In this document: piece by piece, positions 3,421-41,142 of the stretch
How positions within the stretch are numbered: position 1 is the stretch's first letter
Layout of the letters: every line of letters starts with the position of its first letter
Assembly: GCA_024699225.1 (NCBI GenBank)
Contig: JAILPZ010000054.1
Coordinates: 1-43,828 of the forward strand
Length of the DNA stretch: 43,828 nt
Direction of reading: 5' to 3'
Origin: Sphaerochaetaceae bacterium
Lineage (GTDB): Bacteria; Spirochaetota; Spirochaetia; Sphaerochaetales; Sphaerochaetaceae
The notes under the pieces: generated by a model
The model's input: the letters and a program-made list of their open reading frames with translations, nothing else
The model's database searches: none
Told to the model about the DNA's origin: nothing
Program-made: the position numbers and the translations under genes

Positions 3421-6237
3421 TCATTCCTGTTCAACAGGGTAGTCGTGCTTACCGGTAACTTTGTGCTTGATGATCTTACCCATACGTTTGATTGCATAAG
3501 GACCAACAAGCTTCATCATCTCCTCGGCTGTGTGCATGTCACTTGCTGCAGGAATATCACGGGTTAGATGAATGGCGTCGAACTCACACCTTGTTGTACA
3601 GAGACCGCAGCCTATGCACTGGTTAAGGTCAACAAAGGTTGCACCGCACTTAAGACAGCGTGAAGCCTCAGTCTTAACCTGTTCTTCTGTCAACGGCAGA
3701 CGCAGATCATCAAAGGTCTTGGTCGGGTCTCCTTTCTTCAGACCCGGAGCCTGGCGCGGAGCATTGTCGTAGGAGTCAATCTTAACATCGTCCCTGTCAA
3801 GTTCAACAAACTCTCTCAGGTCACGGCCAATCTTCATATCCTGACCGGGGTGGACAAAGCGGTTGATTGAAACCATTGCTGTTCTTCCGCTTGCAATAGC
3901 GTCAATTGCAAACCTCGCCCCAAGAGCTATGTCGCCGGCTACGAAGATATCCGGCTCTGCTGTCTGTAATGTAACTGGATCATAAACAGCTGTTCCGTTG
4001 CGCCTCAGTTCAACCTTAGTTCCCTTGAGCATGTCGCCCCACTGTGCTGCCTGACCTATGGCCATGATAACAGTTGTGCAGTCGAGACTTATGGTCTCAT
4101 TTTCATCATACTTGGGAGAGAAGCGGTGCTCTGAGTCAAAAACGCTTGTGCACTTTTTAAAGACTATGCCGCTGACCTTGCCACTCTTATTAAGAATTTC
4201 CTTCGGGCCCCAGCCGTTTTTAACTTCAATTCCTTCTTCCTCAGCCTCTGCAACCTCGTCCTTTGCTGCAGGCATTTCATTTCTCTGCTCAAGACAGAGC
4301 ATAGTGACCTTGCCGTTTGTGCAGCGGACAGCGGTGCGTGCAATATCAACAGCAACGTTACCGCCACCGACAACAACCACGTCTCCTGAAAGCTTCTTCT
4401 CTCCGTCCTGGTTAACAGAGCGCAGGAAGTCTACGCCAGAAAGAACGCCCCTGGCATCCTCTCCGGGAACTCCGGCCATGCGGCCGCCCTGAAGACCTAT
4501 GGCAATCAGGAAAGCTTTGTAGCCCTGTTTGCGAAGCTCTTCAATGGTGATGTCTTTGCCGACCTCAACGCCGCACTTAATCTCAGCTCCCATGCGCTCG
4601 ATAATCTCAATTTCTTTTTCAATTACAGACTTCTCAAGACGGAAGCTTGGAATGCCGTTAATCAGCATGCCGCCCGGCTTCTGCTCTTTTTCGAAGACAG
4701 TTACCGGATATCCTTCCTTTCTCAAATACCAGGCTGCAGACAATCCTGCAGGACCTGCACCGATAATTGCAATCTTAAGGTCTGTCCACTGTTTGCCTTC
4801 GGCATTCTCACAGATTTCAGTGAAATCCTGGGGATTCTCCAGCTCCCACTGGGCCAGGAATTTCTTAATCTCATCAATTGCAACAGGGCGGTCGATTGTT
4901 CCGCGTGTACATCTGTCTTCACATCTTTTATTACAGACAGCGCCACAGACTGCAGGGAAGGGGTTGTCCTGACGGATGAGCTTTACAGCTTCCTTGTATC
5001 TTCCTTCTCCGGCCATCTTAACGTAGCCCTGAACAGCTATGTGGGCAGGGCAGGCCGTCTTACACGGAGATGTTCCTGTCTCATAGCAGTTTTCCTTGTT
5101 TCTGTCGCGATAGTCGCGGGACCACTTGTCTTCTCCCCAGACTGTGTCGTCCGGAAGTTCCCTCATGGGGTACTTAACCTTGCTTCCGTCTTTTTTGCAG
5201 AGCTTCTGTCCGAGCTTTGCTGCACCTGACGGACAGACTTCAACACACTTTCCGCAGGCTACACACTTATCACGGTCAACGTGGGCGCGGTAGGCACTTC
5301 TGGACATGTTCGGAGTGTTAAACAGCTGGCTGGTTCTAAGACCATAGCAGCTTCCAGGAGAACAGTTACAGATACCGACAATCCTGTCAGGACCGTCAAG
5401 GTTTGTAATCTGATGAACGTAGCCTTTTCTCTCGCCGCGTTCAATTATCTCCATAGCCTGCTCGCGGGTAATGTATCTGGCGTCTTTTCCGCTTTCAACG
5501 AGGAATTCAGCAATATCGCCAAGACCTATACACATATGACCTTCAATGTCTCCGACACCTTCTCCTCTGACTCTCTGGGCCTTACGGCAGGCACAGACCA
5601 TGGAGCAGAACTTGTCGTACTTCTGAAGCCAGTGTGAAAGGTGCTCAACGCTTACACTTTCTGAAGTTGAATCAATGGCTTTTTCAACAGGAATGACGTG
5701 CATTCCAATTCCGGCTCCTCCGGGAGGAACAAGCTTTGCGGCAAGTTCCAGAGGCTCCTGAGGGGCAAGGTTGAACATGGTTGCAACTTCAGGGTTTGTG
5801 TCAGTTAAGGTTGCGTGTTCCACCATGTATTCACCGGAACCTACGACCCATTTCGGAATCCAGTACTGAATGTGCTGGTCTGCGTTGTCCCTGTTCTGTT
5901 CAATAATTCCAATCCATACAAGGTGGTCAATTATCTTCTGAGTCTCTTCAACACTCATTTTGTTGCGCTCTGCAAGTTCAGCTGTTGTGAGGCCTGTGCG
6001 GCGCTTTTTGAAGCTGAGCATGAAGCGAACTTCATCCTTTGTTAAAAGCCTGTCCAGAATCCAGAAATCCATGTGGTTTTCCTTCATGCCTCCGGGCAGC
6101 TTGCGCGGGATGTTGTCTGTTATCATCAGAGCCAGTTTCTTAACCAGCTTTTTCTTTTCGGGATCGGTACACTTGTGCTCGGTAACAGGATAGTCACGCT
6201 CGTTTACGTGTATCATTGGGTTAACTTCTTTTACCAT
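3421..6237 (-). CDS. Large Fe-S flavoprotein: winged-helix-like/Fe-S N-terminal half fused to a GltD-type NAD(P)H oxidoreductase
   Basis: 938 aa, multidomain. Residues ~80-115 look like a helix-turn-helix/winged-helix segment (TTAELAERNKMSVEETQKII). A Cys-rich domain follows at ~210-300 (CSMVCACRKA, MCIGLGD, ICNCSPGSC), then a 4Fe-4S motif at ~325 (CVACGKCVEVCP). From ~390 it follows the glutamate-synthase small-subunit/DPYD-N fold: Fe-S helical motif (CKTACPAHI; CGAVCNKRCEDRC), FAD site IIGAGPAGLSAAWYL (~491), NAD(P) site VVVVGGGNVAVDIARTA (~615). It ends with further Cys motifs (CLKCGAT; CIGCGLCTTRCEFDAI). By family this moves electrons between NAD(P)H, flavin and low-potential Fe-S carriers. 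No GltB partner is present, so glutamate synthase is unlikely; an Nfn-like or dedicated donor role in this cluster is inference. GGAG precedes the ATG by 9 nt. A terminator sits just upstream. Confidence 0.85.
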   Translation of the reverse strand: MVKEVNPMIHVNERDYPVTEHKCTDPEKKKLVKKLALMITDNIPRKLPGGMKENHMDFWILDRLLTKDEVRFMLSFKKRRTGLTTAELAERNKMSVEETQKIIDHLVWIGIIEQNRDNADQHIQYWIPKWVVGSGEYMVEHATLTDTNPEVATMFNLAPQEPLELAAKLVPPGGAGIGMHVIPVEKAIDSTSESVSVEHLSHWLQKYDKFCSMVCACRKAQRVRGEGVGDIEGHMCIGLGDIAEFLVESGKDARYITREQAMEIIERGERKGYVHQITNLDGPDRIVGICNCSPGSCYGLRTSQLFNTPNMSRSAYRAHVDRDKCVACGKCVEVCPSGAAKLGQKLCKKDGSKVKYPMRELPDDTVWGEDKWSRDYRDRNKENCYETGTSPCKTACPAHIAVQGYVKMAGEGRYKEAVKLIRQDNPFPAVCGAVCNKRCEDRCTRGTIDRPVAIDEIKKFLAQWELENPQDFTEICENAEGKQWTDLKIAIIGAGPAGLSAAWYLRKEGYPVTVFEKEQKPGGMLINGIPSFRLEKSVIEKEIEIIERMGAEIKCGVEVGKDITIEELRKQGYKAFLIAIGLQGGRMAGVPGEDARGVLSGVDFLRSVNQDGEKKLSGDVVVVGGGNVAVDIARTAVRCTNGKVTMLCLEQRNEMPAAKDEVAEAEEEGIEVKNGWGPKEILNKSGKVSGIVFKKCTSVFDSEHRFSPKYDENETISLDCTTVIMAIGQAAQWGDMLKGTKVELRRNGTAVYDPVTLQTAEPDIFVAGDIALGARFAIDAIASGRTAMVSINRFVHPGQDMKIGRDLREFVELDRDDVKIDSYDNAPRQAPGLKKGDPTKTFDDLRLPLTEEQVKTEASRCLKCGATFVDLNQCIGCGLCTTRCEFDAIHLTRDIPAASDMHTAEEMMKLVGPYAIKRMGKIIKHKVTGKHDYPVEQE

Positions 6238-6309: not shown

Positions 6310-7494
6310 TTATAAAATAGGTATTTTTATAGTTGCGTCGCTAAGCGGGTAGGTTGAGCAGGCATGGAAGTAGTTAAAGTCCTTGTCAGCTCCGCGTCTG
6401 CCGTCGTTTTCAGGACAGACAAAAACGTTTCCTTCAAGAACCTTTGTGCGGCAGAATCCGCATTCACCGCTCCTGCAGCCGGTCTCAATCCTGATTCCTG
6501 CACGCTCAAGGGCTGTAACAAGACTTTCTGTAGCCTTTGCAGGAATAACATCTTCCTTCAGGCCGCGAAGAACTTTAATCTTGAAAGTCTTGTCCTTTGC
6601 AGAGGCAGGGAAGCCCTCGTACCTGGAGATATCACGAGCCTGGCCGAAGACCTCAAAGCGAACACGTCTTTCAGGAACCTTGAGCTTCTTAAGTTCTTCA
6701 CGCACAAAGCCGTACATGACCTGAGGTCCGCAGATAAAGTATGTAGTATCCTTTGCAGAATACTTTTTAATAACATCTGCAGAGAGGAAGCCTTTTTCTC
6801 CCTTCCAGTCAGGATTGTCGCCTGAAAGAACATGGACAACGTGGACGTTCTTGCCCTCAACCTTATCAAGTTCTTCCTTAAGAACAATATCGTCCTCAGC
6901 GACGCTTCCGTAGAGTATGGTCAGGTCAATCGGAAGTTTTCCTGCAGCAACCTCACGGGCCATGGAGACAAACGGGGTAATTCCAACACCTCCGGCAAGC
7001 GCTACTACGTGCTTTGCATCCCGCAGGCATTCATAGTAGAACTGACCGTTTCCGATTAAGGCCATGAAGGTGTCTCCAACTTTTGCCTTGTCCAGCATGT
7101 AGTCAGAAATAAAACCGTCTGCCTTTGCACGGCGAACTGTTATTTCCAGGTATCCGTTTTTCTCTCTTGCCTGGTAAGGGGCTGAGCTGATTGAGTAGGG
7201 GCGTGAGACCGTGCTCTTTCCTATCTCAAAATCCAGAACAACATACTGACCTGCATAGAAGAACGGAAGCTTTTCTCCGTCTGAACGGACAAAGCGGAAA
7301 GATTTGGCTGTCTTGCAGCTGTCAATAATATCAACTAACTTCAGCTCGACTTTTCCGGGGTGCCACTGCTTTGCAACTTCTGCAATCGGGTCAACTTTTA
7401 CCGGTTTATCCGAGGCATTTTCAAATGCAGCAAGACGTGCCTTTGTAACACGTGAAGCTCCGCCTACATCTTTAAGAAAACCTTTGAATTTCAT
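6310..7494 (-). CDS. FNR-type FAD reductase with C-terminal plant-type [2Fe-2S] domain
   Basis: 394 aa. An N-terminal extension of ~45 residues precedes a ferredoxin-NADP-reductase fold: FAD motif RPYSISSAP, pyridine-nucleotide motifs GGVGITPFVSMA and YFICGPQVMYGF, then a C-terminal 2Fe-2S domain with CRSGECGFC and a distal Cys in HACSTYP. This is the layout of oxygenase/CoA-ester reductases such as the PaaE and BenC families. It passes electrons from NAD(P)H through FAD to the 2Fe-2S cluster and on to a partner. Its start codon overlaps the stop of the upstream phytoene-desaturase-like gene (ATGA, 4 bp), so the two are probably translationally coupled and act together. The native acceptor is not known from sequence. 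Confidence 0.88.
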   Translation of the reverse strand: MKFKGFLKDVGGASRVTKARLAAFENASDKPVKVDPIAEVAKQWHPGKVELKLVDIIDSCKTAKSFRFVRSDGEKLPFFYAGQYVVLDFEIGKSTVSRPYSISSAPYQAREKNGYLEITVRRAKADGFISDYMLDKAKVGDTFMALIGNGQFYYECLRDAKHVVALAGGVGITPFVSMAREVAAGKLPIDLTILYGSVAEDDIVLKEELDKVEGKNVHVVHVLSGDNPDWKGEKGFLSADVIKKYSAKDTTYFICGPQVMYGFVREELKKLKVPERRVRFEVFGQARDISRYEGFPASAKDKTFKIKVLRGLKEDVIPAKATESLVTALERAGIRIETGCRSGECGFCRTKVLEGNVFVCPENDGRRGADKDFNYFHACSTYPLSDATIKIPIL

Positions 7495-9038
7495 TTCTGT
7501 GCCTCCTCTGCCATGGAATCAAGTACGTTTTTAGCTGCCTTTCTTCCGTTGGTTATCTGCGGAGCCATTCCGTCTCCGGAAATCTGGTGGGCACCTGCAA
7601 ACTCAAGGTGCTTGATAAGACTTTCTTCATGTGCTGTCTGAAGTCTTGCAACAATATGGTCTTCCATGGTGTGGGCGTAGCCGTAGATACTGCCGTTCCA
7701 GGCACCTGTGTAGCGGGCTACAGTCATGGGTGTTTCTATTACAATCTCAAGAATATGGTCGAGGAGGTTTACTCCAAGATATTCTGACATGTCGTCTATA
7801 AACTGCTTTGCAAGACGGTGCTTAAGTTCATCGTAATCTTCAGCTTTAACCTTCATCCATGCCTCAGGGCGGGGAAGGGTTGTTATGGAGAGACTTGTCT
7901 GTCCCTTTGGTGTGCAGTCAGGATTTGCCAGGTTAAGGCAGATGGCTGTAACGTAGGTATAAGGGCCAAGACCTCCAAGTTCCTTAAACAGCTCATCTGT
8001 ATCCATGGTTTTGATTGCACGGAAGACGCTGTAGTCTTTTATATTCAGTTCTTCAGGGCTCTTGTCCAGTGTAAGGACAACAGAGAAAGCTGTAAGGCTG
8101 ACTCTTCTGCCGTTGACAACCTTGATAGCCCTCTGAGGAACTTCAGAGATAGGTTCAACCATCTGTGTGTAGACCTTGTTCGGGTAAGCTGCACTTATTA
8201 CGTAGTCAGCATAGATTTCGTCGCCGCGCTGAGTTCTCACTCCGTAGGCTTTCCCGTCCTTAACAAGAATCTTTTCAACGTTCTGGCGGTATTCAATCTG
8301 AACGCCCATTTCTGTGGCGCGTTCTGCCATCTTAACACCCATCTCGTGGCTGAACTTCTTGGCTACAAATGAGCCGTAGCCTACGTAGTCTGCCATAAGA
8401 ACAGCGTAGATGGTAAAGGGCAGCTCACTGAAGCCGCTTCCTACATAAATCCAGTAAGGAGCAAGCAGGTCCAGGGCTTTCTGTGGAAGATCAAATGTGT
8501 CCAGAACTTCCTTTGTGGAGTAGCCTGCTGTCTTTACAAAGGCTTCATGCTTTAAGAGCATTTTGACCTTGCTCATGGGGTGAATTGAAAGTTCGTTTAC
8601 GCTGTCAAAGACTGTATGGCAGAGGTTCAATACAGAAAGAACCTTGTCATATGTTCCGGGCACTGCCTGATCAATTTCCTTAGCAAAGGTTTCAAAGCCC
8701 GGGTGAAGGGTAACTTCAACGCCACCGGGGAGGGAGGCGTGGTAGGCCTCCGGTACTTCCAGCCAGTCAATGTTTACACCCATATCGTCGAGGAACTTAC
8801 CGACCTTAAGGCGGTTTTCCTTCTTTCCTATACTCATCATTTCATGGAGTGTTGCCTCCATTTCAAGACCGCCGCGTACGAAGCTTGTTGCAACTCCGCC
8901 GGGCAGGTTGTGGCGCTCAAGTACCAGAACGTCCTTTCCCTTGTCTGCCAGCATGAGGGCAGAGGAAAGTCCGGCCAGGGCTCCGCCTATTACTATCACA
9001 TCGTATTTATCCTTATAAAATCCGCTGCTTTGTTTCAC
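7491..9038 (-). CDS. Phytoene-desaturase / retinol-saturase-like FAD oxidoreductase
   Basis: 515 aa from the GTG at 9036-9038, chosen because AGGAG lies 8 nt upstream and the FAD fold begins ~13 residues later. An upstream in-frame start would add 23 residues without resemblance to the family. The N-terminal Rossmann segment is YDVIVIGGALAGLSSAL, followed by LVLERHNLPGGVATSF; the C-terminal FAD segment includes GAHQISGDGMAPQITNGRKA. The fold is that of the CrtI/CrtISO/RetSat group, whose members desaturate, isomerise or saturate C=C bonds of long hydrophobic chains. Oddity: the third Gly of the usual GxGxxG is Ala (GGALAG). With no phytoene synthase or other carotenoid gene nearby, carotenoid synthesis is not supported. 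A role in reducing or isomerising an unsaturated acyl chain is inferred from its neighbours. Confidence 0.82.
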   Translation of the reverse strand: MKQSSGFYKDKYDVIVIGGALAGLSSALMLADKGKDVLVLERHNLPGGVATSFVRGGLEMEATLHEMMSIGKKENRLKVGKFLDDMGVNIDWLEVPEAYHASLPGGVEVTLHPGFETFAKEIDQAVPGTYDKVLSVLNLCHTVFDSVNELSIHPMSKVKMLLKHEAFVKTAGYSTKEVLDTFDLPQKALDLLAPYWIYVGSGFSELPFTIYAVLMADYVGYGSFVAKKFSHEMGVKMAERATEMGVQIEYRQNVEKILVKDGKAYGVRTQRGDEIYADYVISAAYPNKVYTQMVEPISEVPQRAIKVVNGRRVSLTAFSVVLTLDKSPEELNIKDYSVFRAIKTMDTDELFKELGGLGPYTYVTAICLNLANPDCTPKGQTSLSITTLPRPEAWMKVKAEDYDELKHRLAKQFIDDMSEYLGVNLLDHILEIVIETPMTVARYTGAWNGSIYGYAHTMEDHIVARLQTAHEESLIKHLEFAGAHQISGDGMAPQITNGRKAAKNVLDSMAEEAQK

Positions 9039-9074
9039 TAAAAAACTCCTGAAGAAAGACTGATAAAAACGCAT

Positions 9075-9104
9075 ACAGGACTGCTGCAAAGGCAACAGTC
9101 CTGT
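9075..9104 (-). terminator. Intercistronic hairpin followed by a T-run (attenuator or processing site)
   Basis: ACAGGACTG and CAGTCCTGT form a 9-bp perfect stem, extended by a further 3 bp past one mismatch to an AAAG-sized loop. On the minus strand ATGCG and then five T follow. It lies in the 85-bp gap between the isomerase-like gene and the GTG-start gene. The T-run is offset from the stem, so termination may be partial. RNA processing or stabilisation is equally possible. Confidence 0.6.
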
Positions 9105-9123
9105 CATTGATCTAAATAGGGTA

Positions 9124-10512
9124 TCAGAAGAAGCGCTCTACGAGCTCTCTTGAGTACTCGGCAGTCTCGTCCATGTCGCCGAAGCTCATGATTTCGCCTG
9201 CGTAGTATGTGTCATACTTGCCCTGCATGGCTTCTACCTTGTCGTACCAGCCGGCTGCGTAGTCTTCAGAGAATACGTGTGGGAAGTAGTAGACGCTCCA
9301 CTCGTTGATTACGTTGGATGCCGGGTTGTGCATGGTTTTAAGGTCGTCAAGAACCATCTTTCTGCATTCTTCGTATGGGATTTCCTTGCTGTCTCTGTGC
9401 TTGCGCAGTGAGTAGGTTGTAATAACCTGATCCTTTGTGTCTCTCCATCTTCTGTAGTAAACCATCAGGTGGCCGAGCTTCTCAGGAACCATGTTGTCAA
9501 AGACGTAGTAGGAGATTTCCGGGTGGTCCTCAGGTTTGGTCTCGCATGCAAGAACGTCATATCTTTCATAGTCGATCTTGGAGAAGAGTTCCTTCTCGTC
9601 CTTCTTTGCATCAAAGTAGTCAACCATACCGACCTGGCCGTCTGCTCTCTTGTTAGGAATGTAAAGAGGGGCTGTGACAATAATCTTGTCATACTCTTCA
9701 ACCTTGCCGTTAACTGTTACGTAGACCTTTCCGTCCTTTCTCTCGACTTTTTCAATCTTGCTGTTAAGTCTTGCCGGGTTCTTGAGCTTTTCATTCAGGT
9801 GTTCCCAAATTGACTGTGTTCCGTCTTTCCATGTCCAGAGGTTGATCTTTACAAAGTTCATACATGTCTGGAAGTCCAGATACTTAAGAACATATGCTGC
9901 AGGAATTTCATCAAAATAGCCGTAGCCGAATGATGTGTAAGGTCCAATCCAGACGTCCTGTGTAAGCTCAACGCCGTTGAGTTTGCAGAAATCCTTGAAC
10001 GGCATGCACAGATCCTTAAGGTTCGGGTTCTCGCCCTGTACAGGCTCACGCTTTGCGCTGCTCTGTGAGAAGCCTTCGTATTTTCCTTCTGCAACACCGC
10101 GGTGTCCGTTAAGGTCGTAGCCTTTGTATTTTGTTTCAAGAAGCTCGCCGAGTTTCTTGATCTGTTTCTTCATCTTAAGAAGTCTTGGAATCTTGAGGAT
10201 GTTCTTCTTGGGTTCGAAAGGCTCAATAACATCTCCTTTTCCATTTTTGTAGTTTCTGTTGAGTTTTGGTCCGTCGTGTGTGATTCCGCAGAATTCCTCA
10301 ACATCATGTACTGCGTAGTAAGAGGGAACGCCCATGATGGCTCCCATTTCATAACGTCTTCCGTTATAGGTAGGGGACCAGCACTTTCCTCCGACTCTGT
10401 CCAATCTTTCCAGGATGGTGTAGTTCTTGTAGCCTTTCTTTTCAAGGTACATACCGGCAGATAATCCGGCAGGACCGCCACCAACAATACAAATACGGGT
10501 TTTCTTGTCCAT
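9124..10512 (-). CDS. Polyunsaturated fatty acid (linoleate) isomerase-like FAD enzyme
   Basis: 462 aa, FAD amine-oxidase fold: ICIVGGGPAGLSAGMYLEKK at the N-terminus, VGGKCWSPTYNGRRYEMGAI at ~40-60, GEIMSFGDMDE near the C-terminus. Beyond the FAD motifs, many stretches match what I remember of the Propionibacterium acnes polyunsaturated fatty acid isomerase, which makes trans-10,cis-12 conjugated linoleate. These include GYGYFDEIPAAYVLKYLDF, LWTWKDGTQ, YYFPHVFSEDYAAGWY and VEAMQGKYDTYYAGEI. The match is by memory, not by search. That family uses FAD without net redox change to move a double bond in a free fatty acid. GGAGG lies 7 nt before the ATG. It is the first gene of the leftward arm and diverges from an acyl-activating/ACP/thioesterase arm, which fits a fatty-acyl substrate. 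Product regiochemistry cannot be read from sequence. Confidence 0.82.
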   Translation of the reverse strand: MDKKTRICIVGGGPAGLSAGMYLEKKGYKNYTILERLDRVGGKCWSPTYNGRRYEMGAIMGVPSYYAVHDVEEFCGITHDGPKLNRNYKNGKGDVIEPFEPKKNILKIPRLLKMKKQIKKLGELLETKYKGYDLNGHRGVAEGKYEGFSQSSAKREPVQGENPNLKDLCMPFKDFCKLNGVELTQDVWIGPYTSFGYGYFDEIPAAYVLKYLDFQTCMNFVKINLWTWKDGTQSIWEHLNEKLKNPARLNSKIEKVERKDGKVYVTVNGKVEEYDKIIVTAPLYIPNKRADGQVGMVDYFDAKKDEKELFSKIDYERYDVLACETKPEDHPEISYYVFDNMVPEKLGHLMVYYRRWRDTKDQVITTYSLRKHRDSKEIPYEECRKMVLDDLKTMHNPASNVINEWSVYYFPHVFSEDYAAGWYDKVEAMQGKYDTYYAGEIMSFGDMDETAEYSRELVERFF

Positions 10513-10693
10513 CAGATGCCTCCAAGCACATATAAGAAAAAATAATTGAGACGCAGGTTTTGAGTTAGAGCAACAGAACCTACATTAGATAATTATATAT
10601 CCATATCTTTTGCATTCATATTGTTTTTTTTATCACTTTTCTGTTTGCACAAATAATCCTTTCTTTGTTTTTTTTCTGTGTTATCCTTAAGAC
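10513..10693. promoter_or_regulatory. Divergent intergenic region with promoters for both arms
   Basis: 181 bp, AT-rich, between two divergent start codons. It must hold the promoters of both arms. It contains an imperfect dyad AGGTT...AACCT (about 10554-10581) and a central AT block near 10590-10605 that gives TATAAT-like hexamers on the minus strand. The rightward gene has no clear Shine-Dalgarno before its ATG; the leftward gene has a good one. I cannot fix exact -35/-10 pairs. Confidence 0.5.
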
Positions 10694-12094
10694 ATGGACA
10701 AGCTAAGAAGGTATTCATCTTTTTATGAGATGGTATGCAGTCAGGCGGAGCGATTGCCGCAAAAGACCGCCTTTAAGATAGAACGTGAGGGCAAGGTTGC
10801 CGAAGTAACCTTTGCCGCTTTCAAAGAAGATATAGACAACCTCGTTTCAAAAGTTATGGGCCACGGCGGTTCCTGTGCTGCTGTTGTCTGTGACGGAAGT
10901 TACTCCTGCATTTTAAATATCATGGCCTTGTGCCGCGCAGGGTACCAGACAGTTCTGCTGGACGCTTCTTTAAGCGAGGAAGAACTTCTGGAGCTGATGG
11001 ATGCAACTGACGTTGATTTTGTTCTGGGAGACGAGGATCTTGAAGAGCTTTTGAGGGAGAAAAACGGTGAGATTTCAGATTCTTCTTCTGGTGACGGCTC
11101 TGCCGGGCCGACTCGGATTCTCTTCTTTACAAGCGGGACCACAGAGCATTCAAAGGCTGTTGTCTTAACAGAAAGCACTCTGTGTTCAAGCGCCTACAAC
11201 GGCTCTTACCTTCTTCCTTTATCTGAAGACGATACTCTTTTGTGCCTGCTGCCGCTAAACCATGTTTTTGGTTTTGTCTGTGGTTTTCTCTGGGGTTTCT
11301 CAGGCGGGTCCTGTGTGGCTCTTGGACGAGGAATGAGGCACCTTATTGACGATCTTTCATTCTTCAAACCCACAGCAGTTTCTGTTGTTCCCCAGCTTCT
11401 TGGGTTCTTACTTAAGAACAATTTAATAAATACTGAACTGTCACTGGTTTTAATTGGAGCCGGAGACTGTCCGCCTGAAATTATCAGAGGAGCGCGGGAG
11501 AGAGGACTTAAGGTGAGCTTTGGCTACGGTCTTACTGAGACAAGCTCAGGTGTGGCTCTGTCTCTTGGAGAGGACCCGTACCTTATGACAATCTGCCCTG
11601 ATTTTGAGGTTGCTATTTCAGAGGACGGAGAGGTTCTGATTGGAAACACAACCTGTATGATGGCCGGCTACTACAACGATCCGGCAGATACTGCTGCAGC
11701 GCTTTCAGACGGAGTTCTGCATACCGGAGATCTTGGTGTTCTGGAAGACGGGAAGCTCAGGATTACAGGCAGAAAGAAGGAAATACTTGTTCTCTCTGAC
11801 GGTACAAAAATCTTTCTTCCTGAGTATGAGAGGGCTCTTGCAAAGAGGCTTCCCGGCCGTGACTTTGCAGTCACCGGTGTGGACGGTTCTCCGTATCTTT
11901 TTGTTTACAACGCCAACAAAGACTGTGATAATGGGTTGGACGCCGCCCATATCGGGCGGTCAATAGAAACCTTTATGATGAAACTTCCCCGCGGTCAGCA
12001 GATTAAGAAAATCTGCGTGATAAATAATCCTCTTCCAAGGACAGCAACAGGAAAGATTAAACGCTGGGAACTTAAAGAAGGACGCAGATATTAA
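10694..12094 (+). CDS. AMP-forming acyl/aryl ligase (ANL superfamily), probable acyl-ACP synthetase
   Basis: 466 aa. ANL motifs are complete: P-loop-like FFTSGTTEHSKAVVLT (~138), YGLTET (~278), HTGDLG (~345), hinge RITGRKKEILVLSDG, and catalytic-Lys segment PRTATGKIKRWEL at the C-terminus. It is shorter than the usual 500-600 aa. The reaction is adenylation of a carboxylic acid with ATP followed by transfer to a thiol. The next gene, 17 bp downstream, encodes an acyl carrier protein and the one after a thioesterase. The likely acceptor is therefore that carrier rather than CoA, as in AasS-type acyl-ACP synthetases. Substrate chain length is not deducible. The weak ribosome-binding site contrasts with the other genes of the cluster. 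Confidence 0.85.
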   Translation: MDKLRRYSSFYEMVCSQAERLPQKTAFKIEREGKVAEVTFAAFKEDIDNLVSKVMGHGGSCAAVVCDGSYSCILNIMALCRAGYQTVLLDASLSEEELLELMDATDVDFVLGDEDLEELLREKNGEISDSSSGDGSAGPTRILFFTSGTTEHSKAVVLTESTLCSSAYNGSYLLPLSEDDTLLCLLPLNHVFGFVCGFLWGFSGGSCVALGRGMRHLIDDLSFFKPTAVSVVPQLLGFLLKNNLINTELSLVLIGAGDCPPEIIRGARERGLKVSFGYGLTETSSGVALSLGEDPYLMTICPDFEVAISEDGEVLIGNTTCMMAGYYNDPADTAAALSDGVLHTGDLGVLEDGKLRITGRKKEILVLSDGTKIFLPEYERALAKRLPGRDFAVTGVDGSPYLFVYNANKDCDNGLDAAHIGRSIETFMMKLPRGQQIKKICVINNPLPRTATGKIKRWELKEGRRY

Positions 12095-12111: not shown

Positions 12112-12369
12112 ATGGAAAATAAGAAGTATACCAGAGCAGAAATTCTGGAGATAACCAAGGAAATAATATATGAGAGTGCCCCTGAGCTTGAGGGAAAACC
12201 TTTAAGCGAGGAAACTGTTATTAACACTGACACCGGAATAGATTCAATGGGCTTTACCCTTATTATCTGCCGTCTTGAGGCTCGTTTTGACGTAAAGATT
12301 CCTGACAGACAGTGGAAGAAGCTTCAGTCTCTCAGTGATGTTGTCACTGCAATTGAAAAACGTCTGTAG
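12112..12369 (+). CDS. Acyl carrier protein dedicated to this cluster
   Basis: 85 aa. The four-helix carrier fold is indicated by size and by TGIDSMGFTLI, with Ser45 of DSM as the predicted 4'-phosphopantetheine attachment site. Acidic helices follow (CRLEARFDV). GGGAGA lies upstream of the ATG. It is not the housekeeping ACP by context, because no fab genes are nearby. It sits between the ligase and the thioesterase and should carry the acyl group handled by this cluster. It differs clearly from the second ACP at 37643. Confidence 0.9.
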   Translation: MENKKYTRAEILEITKEIIYESAPELEGKPLSEETVINTDTGIDSMGFTLIICRLEARFDVKIPDRQWKKLQSLSDVVTAIEKRL

Positions 12370-12377
12370 GCCCTGTT

Positions 12378-13100
12378 TTGACTGACAAAATTTACAGCTC
12401 TGAATTCAAGATCCTCAGTTCCGATACGGACATTTACCGGCGCCTTAGAATAAGCCGCCTCTTTTCCATGTTCCAGGAGGCAACAATTGCCCATACACAG
12501 GCTCTTGGGGCCGGAAGGGAGAAGACTCTGGACAAGGGCTATCTGTGGATAGTTGCCATGCAAAGTGCAACTGTTGAACGCCTTCCTGTTTACGACGAAG
12601 AGGTTGTTTTAAAAACCTGGCCCGGAAAAAGCATGCACATGTTCTTTCCCCGCTATTCTACTTTAGAGGATAAGGAAGGCAATGTTCTGGTGCGCTCCTC
12701 AGCTTTGTGGCTTTTGATTAACGCAAAAACGAGAAAGATGATAGTACCCGACAAAATAGGCGTCTCAATAGAAGGTGTTGTGACCGGTAGTGAAACAGCT
12801 CTTCCCAAGAGCATAAAGGCCGTTCAGAAAGGTAAGAAATTTGATTTTACCGTGCCGTACAGCTACACCGACTTAAACGAACATATGAACAACACAAGGT
12901 ACTTTGATCTTGCAGAAGACTGCATGGCTTCCTCTTTAAGAAAGAAAAGAGTAAAGTCTGTCAGTGCTGAATATACAAGCGAGATAAAGATGAATCAGAG
13001 TTTTCAGCTTCTTTCAAAAACAGAAAATGGTGTGTACACTGCTACGGGCGTTAAGGATGAGAAGAAGCTGTTTTCCCTGCGCTTCGAATATGAAAACTGA
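12378..13100 (+). CDS. Acyl-ACP thioesterase (FatA/FatB-like, double hotdog)
   Basis: 240 aa from a TTG start at 12378, with GTAGG about 7 nt upstream overlapping the ACP stop; I see no better in-frame start. Two hotdog repeats are recognisable. The first begins SSEFKILSSDTDIYRRL; the second carries the family catalytic pattern YTDLNEHMNNTRYFDLAED (Asp/Asn/His, then Glu). Members hydrolyse fatty acyl-ACP to free fatty acid and ACP in the cytoplasm. Next to an acyl-ACP synthetase it would close a load/release cycle. This is an argument for modification of an imported fatty acid rather than for de novo synthesis. Confidence 0.87.
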   Translation: MTDKIYSSEFKILSSDTDIYRRLRISRLFSMFQEATIAHTQALGAGREKTLDKGYLWIVAMQSATVERLPVYDEEVVLKTWPGKSMHMFFPRYSTLEDKEGNVLVRSSALWLLINAKTRKMIVPDKIGVSIEGVVTGSETALPKSIKAVQKGKKFDFTVPYSYTDLNEHMNNTRYFDLAEDCMASSLRKKRVKSVSAEYTSEIKMNQSFQLLSKTENGVYTATGVKDEKKLFSLRFEYEN

Positions 13101-13116
13101 TTATTAGGAAATATTT

Positions 13117-13779
13117 ATGGATTACAAGATAGTTGAAACAAAGGAGAGGGCTCTTGCGGATAACGAGAAGGCAGCAAGACAGACTCTTGAAAAGCTCAAG
13201 AGAAAGGGCGTGTTCTTTGTAAATCTGATGGGCTCTCCGGGAGCAGGCAAGACCTCAACGCTGCTGCGCCTTATTGAACAGGTTGGAGACAAGTACAAAA
13301 TTGGCATAATAGAGGCAGATGTTGATTCTGACGTGGATGCCAGGACCTTGAGTGATAAGGTTACACGCGTTATCCAGATTCATACAGGCGGTCTGTGTCA
13401 CATGGATGCAGATATGACTGAGAGAGCCTTAAATGAGCTGGATGTAGAAGGCCTGGATCTGGTTTTTCTTGAAAATATCGGAAATCTCGTCTGTCCTGCA
13501 GAGTTTGAGGTAGGGGCTAATCTCCGCCTTATGATTCTTTCCGTTCCTGAAGGGGACGATAAGCCTTTGAAGTACCCTCTTATGTTTACGGTAAGTGATG
13601 CCATGATTATCAACAAAACAGATGCCTGTGCCGTTTTTGATTTTGACATTCAGAAGGCTTCAAACCGCGCACATGCTCTGAATTCAGAGATAGCAGTCTT
13701 CCCCGTTTCAGCCAAAACCGGTGACGGCTTTAAGGACCTGGCAAAATGGCTTGATGAGAAAATCAGGAGTGAAAGATGA
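13117..13779 (+). CDS. hypB: HypB-type nickel-insertion GTPase, copy 1
   Basis: 220 aa SIMIBI-class GTPase. P-loop GSPGAGKTST (~39-48); metal-site segments GGLCHMDADM and ENIGNLVCPAEF, whose Cys/His correspond to the G-domain metal site of HypB; NKTD for guanine recognition; VSAKTGDGF near the end. It lacks the N-terminal CxxCGC motif and the His-rich stretch of some HypBs. HypB hydrolyses GTP while delivering nickel to [NiFe]-hydrogenase. No hydrogenase structural gene and no hypCDEF are in the window, so its client is unknown. It follows the thioesterase by 16 bp and overlaps the second HypB by 4 bp (ATGA). Confidence 0.92.
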   Translation: MDYKIVETKERALADNEKAARQTLEKLKRKGVFFVNLMGSPGAGKTSTLLRLIEQVGDKYKIGIIEADVDSDVDARTLSDKVTRVIQIHTGGLCHMDADMTERALNELDVEGLDLVFLENIGNLVCPAEFEVGANLRLMILSVPEGDDKPLKYPLMFTVSDAMIINKTDACAVFDFDIQKASNRAHALNSEIAVFPVSAKTGDGFKDLAKWLDEKIRSER

Positions 13780-14432
13780 GAACAATAAAACTTAATGCTT
13801 CTGTTACAGCTTCCAATGATCTGGATGCTCAGGCTTTAAGAAGCCGTATGAAAGAGAAGGGTGTTTTACTTGTAAATATCATGAGCTCGGCAGGAAGCGG
13901 CAAGACAACACTTCTTTCAAAAGTCATAACCGACTTAAAAGACACAAAGATTGCAGTATTGGAGGCCGATATTGAGTCCTGTGTGGATGCAGAGCACATT
14001 GAAAGTCTTGGGGCTAAGGCCATTCAGGTTCACACCTCAGGTATGTGCCACATGGATGCAGGCATGACAGCTGCTGCAGTTGAGGCAATTAAGGCTGACA
14101 ATGTTGATTTAATGTTTCTTGAGAATGTCGGAAATTTAATCTGCCCTGCAGAATATGATACGGGTTCCTCTTTAAACGTAATGATTCTCTCAGTTCCGGA
14201 AGGAGATGACAAGCCTCTAAAATATCCTCTTATGTTCTCAAAAAGTGATGCCCTGGTTATTTCAAAGATGGATACTCTTTCTTACTTCACTTTTGATCTG
14301 GATAAGTGTGTTTCACGCGTTAAAGCTCTTAATCCTGATATTAAAATCTTCCCCGTTTCTGCCAAGACAGGAGAAGGGATGGATGAGTTTGAAAAATACC
14401 TTAAAGCCTGTCTGAAGGACTGGAGGGCTTAA
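13776..14432 (+). CDS. hypB: HypB-type nickel-insertion GTPase, copy 2
   Basis: 218 aa, paralogous to the preceding gene and translationally coupled to it through an ATGA overlap. P-loop MSSAGSGKTTLLSK, metal-site segments SGMCHMDAGM and ENVGNLICPAEY, the family segment LSVPEGDDKPLKYPLMF, and VSAKTGEGMDEF. In the guanine-recognition position NKxD is replaced by SKMD (VISKMDTL), an Asn-to-Ser change. Copy 1 keeps NKTD. Tandem HypBs with different guanine-recognition residues suggest a heterodimeric or divided role; HypB normally dimerises. That division is inference. Confidence 0.91.
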   Translation: MRTIKLNASVTASNDLDAQALRSRMKEKGVLLVNIMSSAGSGKTTLLSKVITDLKDTKIAVLEADIESCVDAEHIESLGAKAIQVHTSGMCHMDAGMTAAAVEAIKADNVDLMFLENVGNLICPAEYDTGSSLNVMILSVPEGDDKPLKYPLMFSKSDALVISKMDTLSYFTFDLDKCVSRVKALNPDIKIFPVSAKTGEGMDEFEKYLKACLKDWRA

Positions 14433-14433
14433 T

Positions 14434-14778
14434 ATGCATGAGATGGGAATAATAATTCACCTGGCCAAGACTCTTGATCAGACAGCTCAGGAACAGAATC
14501 TGACAAAAATAGGAAGCGTTACACTTCAAGTCGGAGAGGTTTCAGGAATAGTTACAGATCTGTTTGTTGAATGCTGGGACTACTTTAAGAAAAAACATGA
14601 GGTTTTAAAGGACAGCGTTTTAAAGCTTGAAACCATTCCTGCTGTCACCTGGTGCAACAACTGCAAGACAAACTACGAGACAGTCAAATACGGCAAAACC
14701 TGCCCGCACTGTGGCAGCGGAGAGACATGGCTTGTTAAGGGTAATGAGTGTGTGATTAAGGAGATAGAGGCGGAATAA
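14434..14778 (+). CDS. hypA: HypA nickel metallochaperone
   Basis: 114 aa, the usual HypA length. Starts MHEMGI, with His2 of the N-terminal MHE nickel site. It carries a zinc domain with CNNC and CPHC pairs (WCNNCKTNYE; TCPHCGSGE). GGAGGG precedes the ATG and the stop of hypB copy 2 is one base away, so it is in the same operon. HypA partners HypB in nickel delivery. Its presence with two HypBs argues the pair is functional. The window shows no [NiFe]-hydrogenase, urease or CO-dehydrogenase gene as a client. Confidence 0.94.
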   Translation: MHEMGIIIHLAKTLDQTAQEQNLTKIGSVTLQVGEVSGIVTDLFVECWDYFKKKHEVLKDSVLKLETIPAVTWCNNCKTNYETVKYGKTCPHCGSGETWLVKGNECVIKEIEAE

Positions 14779-14928: not shown

Positions 14929-15693
14929 ATGAAAGAAGAAAACTTAACAAAAAACCTGAAAGCCACAGTGAAAACCCTGAATTATAAGGCAAATGAAATC
15001 AGAAAACGCATTTCAAAGATGCCTTCAGGAAAACTGTACGTATGTTCAAAAGACGGAAAGCCTTATTTCTATTACAGGGAAGGCGAAAAGAAAAGCTATA
15101 TAAGCAAGGACTGCGTGCTTGTAAAAACTCTTTCACAGAAAGAATACTTTGAAAATATTTATAAGAAAACAAAGGAAGAAATCCGGATATTGAATTCTGC
15201 AGTACAGAAGCTGAACAGGCTTCATGAAAAAGAAGACAGTGCAGGCTTTAAAAAATACAAGAAGCCATATGTAAAAGAATTCAGGATGGTTGAAATTCTG
15301 GGAGACGAGTGGAAAAGGACAAACCAGAAAGACAGTGAGCATATATTCAGTACAGACAAGGGAGATTATGTAAGAAGCAAGGCGGAAGTGATTATAGCCA
15401 ACATGCTGAATAAAAAGGTCCCGTACATTTACGAAAAGAGGATGATAGTAAACGGCCATGTTGTTTATCCCGACTTTTACGTAATGAATGAAAGAACAGG
15501 CGAAATTATTATAATTGAGCATCTTGGAAAGATGGGGGACCAGAACTACGCCAGAAGAAATATCAAAAAGCTAAATGACTACATAATGGACGGCTTTGTT
15601 TTAGGAAAGAATTTGCTCATTACTATGGAAACAGATGACGAGCCACTGAATATTGATGTGGTGAAAAGGATGATTAAACAGAGTTGCCAGTAA
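14929..15693 (+). CDS. Hypothetical protein with PD-(D/E)XK-like nuclease core
   Basis: 254 aa, Lys-rich and AT-rich compared with its neighbours. Residues ~1-110 are charged and helical, probably partly coiled-coil. The C-terminal part reads as a restriction-endonuclease-like fold: VRSKAEVIIANML (helix with Glu), YEKRMIVNGHVVYPDFYV (conserved PDF Asp), then IIIIEHLGKMGDQNYARR (E-x-H/K region). This pattern is familiar from uncharacterised proteins of Firmicutes and spirochaetes. No methylase partner is adjacent. Possible roles are DNA repair, phage defence or a solitary nuclease. Expression appears to start from the ECF-like element touching its ATG. Confidence 0.7.
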   Translation: MKEENLTKNLKATVKTLNYKANEIRKRISKMPSGKLYVCSKDGKPYFYYREGEKKSYISKDCVLVKTLSQKEYFENIYKKTKEEIRILNSAVQKLNRLHEKEDSAGFKKYKKPYVKEFRMVEILGDEWKRTNQKDSEHIFSTDKGDYVRSKAEVIIANMLNKKVPYIYEKRMIVNGHVVYPDFYVMNERTGEIIIIEHLGKMGDQNYARRNIKKLNDYIMDGFVLGKNLLITMETDDEPLNIDVVKRMIKQSCQ

Positions 15694-23305: not shown

Positions 23306-23848
23306 ATGAAGAAAAAAGTGATTTTGATTTCTTTCATCTTTTTCTCTGCCCTCTGTCTCCAGGCTCTTCCCCTGGAGGCAAGGGGCGCTTACTCCCGCAA
23401 TCTTTCATACATAGAGTATGAGGAGTCTCCCTCTGTCTGTATTGGAGATTCGGTTTCCCTGTTTGCAGGCTACAGGGCTGAAACATGGAGTGCCGGAGCG
23501 GAGGGTTCTGTTTGTTTTCTTCAGGAGGCAAAGAACTTTAATACCTACCAGGCCCTTGGAGATTTGGGCGGTTTTTCTCTCTTGTTTGATCTGTGTTACA
23601 GGGGAGAGGGTGTAAGAGCTTCCTTAGGCTGCGGACTTTCTTTCTACAGTCCGGATTTTGACAGAAACAACTTCTTCTCAATGGCATGCGTAAAAAGTGA
23701 GATCCAGATGAAAGTAGTGGAGAAAAAGAATTTTTCTCTTCATGCAGGTCTGTCTTTAAAGGCAGAGACCGGGGGCTTAAGAAAAGCTCTTAGCCTCGGT
23801 TTTGTTACAAGTTTAATTTATGGCGGTAGTCCCGGAGGCATTAAGTGA
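23306..23848 (+). CDS. Small exported beta-barrel-like protein
   Basis: 180 aa from ATG 23306, where a clear signal peptide begins (KKKVILISFIFFSALCLQAL). An upstream TTG in the same frame would put ten residues before it and is rejected. The mature part has alternating strands such as SLFAGYRAETWSAGAEGSVC and VRASLGCGLSFYS, consistent with an outer-membrane barrel of about eight strands. No named family recognised. Its stop overlaps the GTG start of the caspase-fold lipoprotein (GTGA), so the two are probably translated together and may act together at the envelope. Confidence 0.72.
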   Translation: MKKKVILISFIFFSALCLQALPLEARGAYSRNLSYIEYEESPSVCIGDSVSLFAGYRAETWSAGAEGSVCFLQEAKNFNTYQALGDLGGFSLLFDLCYRGEGVRASLGCGLSFYSPDFDRNNFFSMACVKSEIQMKVVEKKNFSLHAGLSLKAETGGLRKALSLGFVTSLIYGGSPGGIK

Positions 23849-24738
23849 AAGTGGTTGTCATAATTGTTCCCTTTGCTTTAATCTCGCTTTCCCTACTTAT
23901 CTCTTGTTCTCTCTCTCCGGATTCCCACTCCGGAAACAGCGCGGTTTATGTTGTAAGTGTCGGCCTTAACTACGAGTCTTCCATTATTACGACCTTATAC
24001 GGTGCCCCGCTGGATGCAGCCGAGACTGCCGCCTGTCTATATTCAATCTATACGGATAAGGGTCTGCAGGTTCAAACAAACTTTCTGATCTCCGGAGAGG
24101 AGGCAGACTTAAGTGCGCAGGGGATAAAGAGCGTTGTAAACAGTATTTCAGCAAGTGAAGAAGATCTTGTTGTTTTTTATTTTTCAGGGCACGGGAGTGT
24201 GGATACAAACGGCTTCTTTCTGGCCATGGAAGAGACAGAAGAACACCCGTATTACACAAAGCTTTACGTAAAAGATTTAATTGAAGATTTAGAGAATAAA
24301 GGCTGTCCTGCAGTGGTGATTCTGGATTCTTGTTATGCGGGTCTGGCAGTAGAGGCCTGCATGTATTTTAGCTCTGTAGAAGATGCAGTTCAGAGTCTTT
24401 TTGACAGAACTGAGAGGTCAAAGATCTCTGTCCTGTGCTCTTCTGCATCCGATCAGGTTTCCTATATGTCCAGCATGCTGAATGAGGATAACCAGATTGA
24501 AAAACACAGCTTATTTACATTGAAGATGCTTAAGGCTCTTGGGTGGGTTCATTCTACTTCAGAGTCTACAAAGATAGAAACGGAGAAAGGGGAAAAGGTA
24601 GTTTACGGATATCAGGGAAAGGAAGTTGGGAAAACAAGCGTTAGGGAACTGTATGAAAAGTGTTTGAAGAACTGGGCTTCAACTCGTCAAATTCCGTTTG
24701 TTAACAGGACAGCGGTTCCTGTTCTTTTAATTCCATAA
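23845..24738 (+). CDS. Lipoprotein with caspase-fold (peptidase C14) domain
   Basis: 297 aa from a GTG start overlapping the previous stop. The signal peptide ends in a lipobox (SLLISCS), so the mature protein should be lipid-anchored outside the cytoplasm. The caspase-fold catalytic dyad is clear: His in VVFYFSGHGSVDTNG (~115) and Cys in AVVILDSCYAG (~160). The preceding strand is AVYVVSVGLNYESS. Bacterial metacaspase-like enzymes of this group cleave peptides, often after Arg/Lys. The envelope location and the coupling to a barrel protein are notable. No inhibitor or obvious substrate gene is linked apart from the two lipoproteins downstream. Confidence 0.87.
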   Translation: MKVVVIIVPFALISLSLLISCSLSPDSHSGNSAVYVVSVGLNYESSIITTLYGAPLDAAETAACLYSIYTDKGLQVQTNFLISGEEADLSAQGIKSVVNSISASEEDLVVFYFSGHGSVDTNGFFLAMEETEEHPYYTKLYVKDLIEDLENKGCPAVVILDSCYAGLAVEACMYFSSVEDAVQSLFDRTERSKISVLCSSASDQVSYMSSMLNEDNQIEKHSLFTLKMLKALGWVHSTSESTKIETEKGEKVVYGYQGKEVGKTSVRELYEKCLKNWASTRQIPFVNRTAVPVLLIP

Positions 24739-24759: not shown

Positions 24760-25869
24760 ATGGAAAGCAGTAAAAAGATTATATTCTTTTTCCTTTTTCT
24801 TTCTCTTGTGTTTGTTTCCTGCTCCAGTGAGGTTTCCTATTCTTCAGATAATGAGGAAAGCTCCGACCTTGCTTCAGTAAATTTTACGGTTCAGACAAGT
24901 GAAATTAAGAGCCTTACGGTTTCAAATGATGCTTCTGATATTGCAATTTACACTTTCAAGGCTGTCTCAAATGCCGAAGATGCCAAAGGGGAATCAACAA
25001 GTTTTGAAGCCTATAATGCCGCCGAAAGCGGTGCAGGAACAATATCTGCCCGTTTTTCACCCGGATACTGGACATTCACAATCCGCGGAAGCAACAGCAG
25101 CGGCGGTGTGATATACGAGGGAAACAAGACTGTGTACCTTTCTCCGGGAGAAAATGAAGTAGAAATTGATATTTCTCCGGTAATAAATACAGCAGAAGGT
25201 CTTAAAGGCTCTTTAAAGATCAATATTACAGCTCCGATAGTAAGTGAAGACGAGACCTGTTATTTTTCTTTCTCCTGCGTAAGCCTGACTGAGGCAAATG
25301 CAGAGTCTTTTTCTTTGACGGTTCCTGCAGCAGCGGTTACCAGGGGAACTGAGGACTGCAGTGTTTTATTTACCGATGAAAACTTTTCTCCGGGCCTGTA
25401 CCTGTTAACCGTCTCTTATTATGAAAACAGCTTATCTGATACTGCTGTATCTACTGCTGTTACTGCTTTCAGGATTATTGAAAGCACAGTTACAGAGGTC
25501 TCAGGCCGTCTTGACGGTTTTTTGTTCTCTTCGGTAAACATAAGTGTTTTAAGGCAGGATCTGAGCGCTTCCATGATTCATAACGGGGCAAACAGCACCT
25601 TCACAGTAACACCGGGAGGCAGCGGATATACAAACGTCTCTTACAGGTGGTACATAAACGGCACCAGAGTTTCGGAAACCGGGTCTTCTCTTAATTATCC
25701 TTCCTGTTTTGGACCTGATCTTATCTCCGCAAGTGCCGGGTACTACTGCATAAGCTGTATAGTTATGGCCCAGAACTCAGCAAACGGCTGTGTTGAGGCC
25801 GTATGCTGCAGAGGACACTTTACGATAGATTCCAGTGGCAATTTTGCAAACGGGGCCGCAGGTCAATAA
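24760..25869 (+). CDS. Lipoprotein with Ig-like segments
   Basis: 369 aa. AAGGAGG precedes ATG. Signal peptide with lipobox VFVSCSS. The mature part is Ser/Thr-rich with beta-sandwich-like repeats: FSPGYWTFTIRGSNSSG, FSPGLYLLTVSYYENS, and a C-terminal segment TVTPGGSGYTNVSYRWYING resembling an Ig/PKD-type fold. Paired cysteines (CYYCISC-like stretches) suggest an extracytoplasmic, oxidised environment. Similar FSPG-x-W/Y-TF modules appear in the next gene, so the two share a module. It follows the caspase-fold gene by 21 bp; it could be a substrate or surface partner (inference). Confidence 0.75.
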   Translation: MESSKKIIFFFLFLSLVFVSCSSEVSYSSDNEESSDLASVNFTVQTSEIKSLTVSNDASDIAIYTFKAVSNAEDAKGESTSFEAYNAAESGAGTISARFSPGYWTFTIRGSNSSGGVIYEGNKTVYLSPGENEVEIDISPVINTAEGLKGSLKINITAPIVSEDETCYFSFSCVSLTEANAESFSLTVPAAAVTRGTEDCSVLFTDENFSPGLYLLTVSYYENSLSDTAVSTAVTAFRIIESTVTEVSGRLDGFLFSSVNISVLRQDLSASMIHNGANSTFTVTPGGSGYTNVSYRWYINGTRVSETGSSLNYPSCFGPDLISASAGYYCISCIVMAQNSANGCVEAVCCRGHFTIDSSGNFANGAAGQ

Positions 25870-25876
25870 ATGCCTT

Positions 25877-40524: not shown

Positions 40525-41142
40525 TCAGGAGTCAAAACCCTTCTTCTGGTCTCTCATGTAGAAGAAGGCTGACATGCACATGACTCCGTTGTCATATTCA
40601 CCGGTTCCTAAAGCCTTTAACACCTCAGAGACCTCAACGGTTACAGTATCTATCTGCTCATTTGCATCAAAGTGCCTGGTTCCTAGCTCTTCAAGCTCCT
40701 CAGCCAGGTAGAAGTGTCCGCGTGTTGAGATGTATGCACTGTTCGGGTTAACGCATCCTATCTCCTTAAGCTTGTGAACACGAATACCGGTTTCTTCTTC
40801 CATCTCGCGAAGTGCAGCCTGGGCGGGATCTTCTCCTTCGTCTACAAGGCCTGCCGGAAACTCAATGGTAACGGATTCACTGCCGTGTCTGTACTGACGG
40901 ACCATAACAAAGCGTTCAATCCCGTCTGTGCCTTTAAAGACAGGAACTATATTTACCCACTGGGGACTTGAAATTTCTACAAAATTGCCCTCACGGCCAT
41001 CCTGACTTTTTCTGTGAATCTGATTTAAGTCAAAAATGGGAGTCTTCTGAAGGTTTTTCCTCTCGCAGGATTCCCACATGAGGGCAGAAGAGGGCTCTGC
41101 AGTTTCTAATGTGTCAAATGAATGCTCATCAACGTATTTCAT
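40525..41142 (-). CDS. Nudix hydrolase, ADP-ribose pyrophosphatase-like
   Basis: 205 aa from ATG 41142, which has GAAGGAAG just upstream; a longer in-frame start would extend further into mrp without resemblance. The Nudix box is complete: GLVDEGEDPAQAALREMEEE followed by TGI. FVMVRQYRHGSESVTIEFPA before it is typical of ADP-ribose/sugar-nucleotide pyrophosphatases (NudF-like). Cytoplasmic housecleaning of nucleoside diphosphate derivatives. Start overlaps the mrp stop (ATGA), so they are translationally coupled. Confidence 0.9.
   Translation of the reverse strand: MKYVDEHSFDTLETAEPSSALMWESCERKNLQKTPIFDLNQIHRKSQDGREGNFVEISSPQWVNIVPVFKGTDGIERFVMVRQYRHGSESVTIEFPAGLVDEGEDPAQAALREMEEETGIRVHKLKEIGCVNPNSAYISTRGHFYLAEELEELGTRHFDANEQIDTVTVEVSEVLKALGTGEYDNGVMCMSAFFYMRDQKKGFDS

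Follow-up and report, generated by a model that had tools for sequence, protein, structure and literature searches.

What do two nickel-chaperone GTPases and a nickel metallochaperone serve in a gene cluster that holds no conventional nickel enzyme? The question is raised by the window, by which we mean the whole stretch of 43,828 nucleotides analysed here. In it HypB1, HypB2 and HypA are encoded one after another, and Pfam scans of the main open reading frames found no nickel enzyme. A preliminary description had placed the coupled trio at 13117–14778 and had seen no [NiFe]-hydrogenase, urease or CODH in the window. The coordinates are exact, and the absence is borne out by the Pfam scans. 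That description also allowed that the nickel client might be an enzyme of the cluster itself. This suggestion is now supported by a homologue of IsrA at 3421–6237, which it had not recognized. We propose that HypB1, HypB2 and HypA are the nickel loaders of this IsrA, and that the cluster is a module for the hydrogenation of unsaturated fatty acids. We put the probability of this reading at about 0.55. The features concerned are as follows.

3421–6237, minus strand: likely IsrA-family oxidoreductase, 938 aa, proposed nickel client (PF14691, PF07992, Fer4)
6310–7494, minus strand: NAD(P)H–FAD–[2Fe-2S] reductase, 394 aa, likely electron supply (PF00970, PF00175, PF00111)
7491–9107, minus strand: CrtISO/CrtI-like flavoprotein, 538 aa, alternative isomerase or reductase (TIGR02730, E = 1.5e-33, below the model cut-off)
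9124–10512, minus strand: PAI-like polyunsaturated fatty acid isomerase, 462 aa (2b9w, E = 1e-142)
10513–10693: intergenic region of 181 bases separating the divergent operons (ORF map)
10694–12094, plus strand: acyl-AMP ligase (ANL family), probable acyl-ACP or acyl-CoA ligase (PF00501, 114 bits)
12112–12369, plus strand: acyl carrier protein (ACP), dedicated (PF00550, 29 bits against a cut-off of 20.8)
12378–13100, plus strand: acyl-ACP thioesterase (PF01643 and PF20791, both above cut-off)
13117–13779, plus strand: HypB1, nickel-chaperone GTPase, first copy (P-loop GSPGAGKTS, metal site CHMDA...CPAE, G4 motif NKTD)
13776–14432, plus strand: HypB2, nickel-chaperone GTPase, second copy (P-loop SSAGSGKTT, CHMDA...CPAE, G4 motif SKMD)
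14434–14778, plus strand: HypA, nickel metallochaperone (MHE N-terminus, two CxxC)

How are these genes arranged? The plus-strand operon has six genes and runs from the acyl-AMP ligase through the ACP and the thioesterase to the trio, which forms its 3′ end. By the ORF map, 16 bases separate the end of the thioesterase gene (13100) from the start of HypB1, in keeping with the earlier remark that no promoter-sized gap stands between them. HypB1 and HypB2 overlap by 4 bases (ATGA), a single base separates HypB2 from HypA, and all three reading frames are intact and coupled. The minus-strand operon has four genes, for the PAI-like isomerase, the CrtISO-like flavoprotein, the NAD(P)H–FAD–[2Fe-2S] reductase and the 938-aa protein, and a terminator-like stem lies past the last of these (3402–3375). 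Only a weak promoter-like match was seen in the 181 bases between the operons, and a search of the same region for operator-like repeats gave none that was convincing. An RNA-family scan of the window returned a single tRNA and no nickel riboswitch. The cluster is also present in a second metagenome-assembled genome (MAG) of the same genus (G001), where the isomerase is 94% identical, the contig-held part of the 938-aa protein is likewise 94% identical, and the genes downstream of HypA are the same as in the window. The cluster is therefore not an assembly artefact.

Several other features were seen in the window. The gene after HypA (14929–15693) encodes a 254-aa protein that belongs to no Pfam family and whose C-terminal YPDFYV...IIIEHLG looks nuclease-like by eye; a paralogue 35% identical to it lies between the ligase and the isomerase in G001 (locus L171, 2069–2857). 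The segment 32001–38000 has about 33% G+C in a window of 45% G+C, encodes an MBOAT acyltransferase, an FkbH-N protein and an ACP, and resembles a foreign island that would make an acylated product. A caspase-fold peptidase (PF00656) is encoded beside a BspA-type leucine-rich repeat protein (23845–24738 and 25835–27139). Toward the far end of the window (41139–42059) is a gene for a NUBPL/Mrp-type Fe–S carrier ATPase (PF10609).

Are both HypBs sound, and how old is the pair? Against the TIGR00073 equivalog (cut-off 121) HypB1 scores 232 bits and HypB2 242 bits, and both match the HypB structure 4lps (E = 4e-42 and 2.5e-47, respectively). They are 49% identical to one another across 207 aa. The G4 motifs are NKTD in the first copy and SKMD in the second, as described earlier; the Helicobacter pylori HypB of 4lps has ISKAD at the corresponding place, so the serine is not odd and makes a weak mark of a defective or altered HypB2. 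Among 80 related HypB loci drawn from species-representative genomes, 76 have the tandem, the other four seeming cut or incomplete, and in 73 of the 76 the two reading frames overlap. This is not an arrangement of chance. In a tree of 170 HypBs all first copies form one clade (support 1.0); the second copies fall in a separate group, and between the two lie the family's single-copy HypBs. First copies mostly carry NKxD at G4 and second copies mostly S/TKxD. Because the P-loop and the CH...C metal site are kept by both copies in nearly all of the 76 pairs, nothing points to a dead GTPase. Judged from the tree, the HypB duplication is old and retained, and it comprises two separate lineages. Heteromeric or two-step nickel loading would fit such a duplication, and a division of roles between the copies is possible.

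The third member of the trio had been called a canonical HypA. Its translation does have the MHE nickel site (residues 1–3) and two CxxC zinc motifs (CNNC and CPHC). Its PF01155 score of 107 bits is well above the cut-off of 28.9, but at 71.5 bits it falls below the stricter TIGR00100 cut-off of 88.1. By these scores it is a divergent HypA.

Which protein of the cluster might be the client? The 938-aa protein has a winged helix at about residues 55–125, seen in a structure model, a 4Fe-4S motif at 325–335, an FAD/NAD(P) core of GltD type at 375–800 and a C-terminal 4Fe-4S motif at 861–884. Homologues of the NfnA, GltD and DPD type match it from residue 375 onward. Profile scans of its N-terminal region gave nothing significant, and a fold search with a model of residues 1–344 (mean pLDDT 71) gave no match below E = 0.001; only winged-helix proteins matched, and those weakly. 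This N-terminal part holds a six-cysteine (Cys6) site made up of C215-x-C217, C236, C290-x-C292 and C297; all six cysteines are invariant, as is H275. Published IsrA (VUZ27132.1) has CxC pairs at Cys180/182 and Cys254/256 and a ferredoxin motif at 289–300 (PMC10134865). The spacing of the CxC pairs is 75 here against 74 there, and that to the first ferredoxin motif is 35 in both. The size, the domains and the six-cysteine site of the IsrA family (clade 9; Kronen et al. 2023) are all found in the 938-aa protein. Matched in this way to the published architecture and cysteine spacing, it is likely a member of that family.

IsrA is the putative isoprene reductase of Acetobacterium wieringae, a function that rests on proteogenomics, and nickel has been proposed at its six-cysteine site (PMC10134865). 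In A. wieringae, HypA and HypB are encoded beside IsrA, with neither a hydrogenase nor hypCDEF, and among 988 IsrA homologues HypA is adjacent in 73% and HypB in 56% (PMC10134865). HypA and HypB with IsrA and without a hydrogenase is thus already published, and the puzzle of Hyp proteins without a hydrogenase has a published kind of answer. What is new here is the two-operon cluster and the proposed link to fatty acids.

How might such a cluster work? From the gene content, the homologies, the conserved motifs, the co-occurrence and the lack of the usual nickel clients, we propose a route in which the presence of nickel in IsrA, the identities of substrate and product, the involvement of the ACP and the sequence of steps are all predicted. 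The ligase would load an exogenous polyunsaturated fatty acid onto the dedicated ACP, or the free acid may be used. The PAI-like isomerase would convert its methylene-interrupted diene to a conjugated diene, perhaps of the trans-10,cis-12 type. Electrons would pass within IsrA from NAD(P)H to FAD and on through a chain of Fe–S clusters, and IsrA would then saturate one bond of the conjugated diene at the Cys6 metal site, into which HypB and HypA would have inserted nickel. The thioesterase would release the product.

What ties the cluster to fatty acids? The isomerase aligns with PAI (2b9w) over nearly its full length (residues 2–138 and 166–462), with 231 of 416 aligned residues identical (55.5%). 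The PAI-like fold does not fix which isomer the 462-aa protein makes. We surveyed the whole genomes behind 50 of the related tandem-HypB loci, mostly MAGs from rumen and gut. With IsrA taken at a threshold of 55% identity, PAI was found in 40 of the 43 genomes that have it and in 0 of the other seven (Fisher p = 1.2e-6, phylogeny ignored); these genomes were picked through HypB and are mutually related, so that the counts are not independent and p-values overstate their independence. Across genomes, identity to the window's PAI and identity to the window's IsrA are correlated (rho = 0.78). Within the organism's own family, full-length PAI occurs only in its own genome (G000) and in G001, the two genomes with the window type of IsrA. 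The ligase, ACP and thioesterase genes are near the HypB pair in about 17–19 of 49 well-flanked loci. The lipid genes are thus no constant companion of the trio, and they were rejected as its obligate partner because IsrA and HypA stand alone, with no lipid genes, in most related loci. One locus (L075) is an exception to the module, with tandem HypB beside homologues of the ligase, ACP and thioesterase (37–40%); its genome has a hydrogenase but lacks both IsrA and PAI.

The chemistry points the same way. Given a conjugated diene (isoprene, 1,3-butadiene), cells of A. wieringae strain Y hydrogenate one of its bonds, giving a monoene, and they leave a single C=C bond untouched (PMC9765523). Since IsrA-type hydrogenation takes conjugated dienes and a PAI-type isomerase makes one from linoleate, the two activities fit as consecutive steps. 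An oleate hydratase gene lies near the IsrA homologue in two Acetobacterium species (PMC10134865), which again hints at fatty acids. Since IsrA is also found where PAI is not, fatty acids cannot be its sole substrate. The words linoleic and rumen are absent from the IsrA paper (PMC10134865), and among the open-access papers searched we found none joining IsrA or HypAB with fatty-acid biohydrogenation. A search of plasmids gave no close PAI and one IsrA with HypB and HypA; these form a HypB–IsrA–HypA operon on a mobilizable plasmid, 267 kb in size, from Subdoligranulum variabile (locus L231, OY725877.1, 186101–203120). In its fullest form the proposal is that the PAI-like isomerase and an IsrA loaded by HypB1, HypB2 and HypA form a complete anaerobic pathway, dependent on nickel, in which linoleate is converted first to trans-10,cis-12 CLA and then to a monoene, and which is distributed among uncultured bacteria of the rumen and gut. 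We hold this version tentatively, at a little under even odds.

Might the lipid be a different one? The trio could mature IsrA while the cluster acts on some other conjugated lipid, such as a polyene, an isoprenoid or a carotenoid-like chain, and not on dietary polyunsaturated fatty acids. The neighbouring 538-aa protein does resemble carotenoid isomerases and desaturases, and IsrA alone is found in many contexts without lipid genes; the extent and closeness of the isomerase's match to PAI speak against it, as does the finding of no polyene synthase in the window, and we regard it as unlikely.

Could the 538-aa flavoprotein itself be the diene reductase? It would then work with its ferredoxin reductase, while IsrA and its chaperones handled a different electron acceptor and were merely co-regulated. 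The CrtISO-like gene adjoins PAI in many genomes, and in the window the reductase gene overlaps it. However, the CrtISO-like protein is present in 35 of the 40 PAI genomes and so missing from five, whereas IsrA is present in every one (40/40), and it is cells with an IsrA-type enzyme that are known to reduce conjugated dienes (PMC9765523). We regard this alternative as unlikely to the same degree as the one before it.

Do the trio's gene products act on IsrA, or do they merely lie near it? IsrA is near the HypB pair in 36 of the 49 well-flanked loci, the usual order being HypB1–HypB2–938-aa protein–HypA. It is present in 48 of the 50 tandem-HypB genomes, and the two without it (G154 and G167) both have a hydrogenase. 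HypA exceeds the cut-off in 15 of 119 genomes of the organism's own family, and in 12 of these it lies directly beside IsrA; of the remaining three, the own genome has both in the same cluster, G001 has them on separate contigs, and in G133 a contig end cuts the locus. DUF5692, a published neighbour of IsrA, adjoins the same operon in three relatives; in loci L168–L170 the IsrA operon has a single HypB and this membrane protein lies next to it, which is also the published arrangement. A radical-SAM protein is encoded ahead of HypB–IsrA–HypA in genus g8 of the family (L162, 11005–12018; also L159–L161). Other neighbours in the 80 loci were rejected as conserved partners: the large unlabelled clusters 3, 4 and 11 are antisense reading frames over known genes, and a heavy-metal P-type ATPase, ABC transporters and others are local only.

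There is one nested clade of IsrA without adjacent Hyp genes. It includes two further copies in the organism's own genome (L155, contig C33, 19088–21829; L156, contig C25, 6158–8893), each transcribed divergently from ABC-transporter genes for two permeases and an ATPase. Loss of metal ligands was rejected as the reason why HypAB are missing here: the Cys6 site is intact. One genome with an IsrA of this clade (G009, 97% complete) has no HypA above the cut-off, and nickel may therefore not be needed by every IsrA. This clade, more than anything else observed, speaks against nickel being strictly required throughout the family. It is also what favours the view that HypB1, HypB2 and HypA are for nickel or zinc handling in general and owe their place near IsrA to common ancestry, with no action upon it. 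That view is improbable given that the linkage persists over most of the IsrA tree with gene orders rearranged and neighbours differing, and that it recurs among the 988 published homologues (PMC10134865). We consider it probable that HypB1, HypB2 and HypA serve IsrA. That nickel is the metal at its Cys6 site we infer from the chaperones alone.

Might a conventional nickel enzyme have escaped notice? Searches of the organism's genome with PF00374, PF03063, PF00449 and HypD (PF01924), of the kind that the preliminary description had called for, found no [NiFe]-hydrogenase, HypD, urease or CODH/Hcp, although in a MAG that is 80.6% complete such absences alone are no proof. In a search of 37 genomes from the organism's family, none had the hydrogenase large subunit (PF00374). 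Among the 50 tandem-HypB genomes a hydrogenase is found in nine, HypD in ten (the same nine and one more), urease in one and CODH/Hcp in ten; 37 have none of hydrogenase, urease and CODH/Hcp. That the trio serves a hydrogenase, urease or CODH missed by an incomplete assembly, as the completeness of 80.6% and the nine related genomes with a hydrogenase large subunit might suggest, is thus very improbable in the face of the 0/37 in the family, the 37/50 without such enzymes and the confinement of HypD to genomes with a hydrogenase, plus one. LarA uses LarB, LarC and LarE and is not known to use HypAB.

What would follow if the proposed module is real? The cluster suggests a nickel-dependent route for the hydrogenation of polyunsaturated fatty acids by gut bacteria. 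In 2015 it was not possible to trace the CLA reductase of Butyrivibrio in genome databases (PMC4478896). By bringing together a PAI-like isomerase, a predicted diene reductase of IsrA type and their own nickel chaperones, the cluster offers candidate genes and candidate organisms for each of the two steps, and it leads to the prediction that these bacteria need nickel to hydrogenate fats. The IsrA family would gain a second class of substrate, an alkene-hydrogenating enzyme would join the known nickel enzymes, and the carriers of the cluster would become candidates for the unidentified trans-10 producers.

How does the cluster compare with known systems? The closest is the isr operon of A. wieringae ISORED-2, which comprises IsrA, two HypAs, HypB and a ferredoxin (Kronen et al. 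2023, PMC10134865). Both have an IsrA-type oxidoreductase of about 900 aa with an NAD/FAD core, four 4Fe-4S clusters and the Cys6 site; in both HypA and HypB adjoin, and neither has a [NiFe]-hydrogenase or hypCDEF. Unlike the isr operon, with its one HypB and two HypAs, the present cluster has two HypBs and one HypA, lacks the extra isr ferredoxin and is coupled to the PAI-like isomerase and acyl-ACP genes. The canonical hypABCDEF maturation of [NiFe]-hydrogenase, and the HypA and HypB of H. pylori, which there also serve urease, have in common with the present cluster the motifs of HypA and HypB and a HypB that lacks an N-terminal metal-binding tail. The setting is different: here neither HypD nor a hydrogenase was found in the organism's own genome, and HypB is duplicated. 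The PAI of Propionibacterium (Cutibacterium) acnes (2b9w), to which the isomerase is related at the identity given above, was described alone, as an enzyme forming trans-10,cis-12 CLA, whereas here genes for a proposed diene reductase and for nickel chaperones accompany its homologue. Finally, the CLA reductase of Butyrivibrio fibrisolvens (Hughes 1982; Fukuda 2007, both cited in PMC4478896) catalyses the same reaction as that proposed for the present cluster, the conversion of a conjugated dienoic acid to a monoene.
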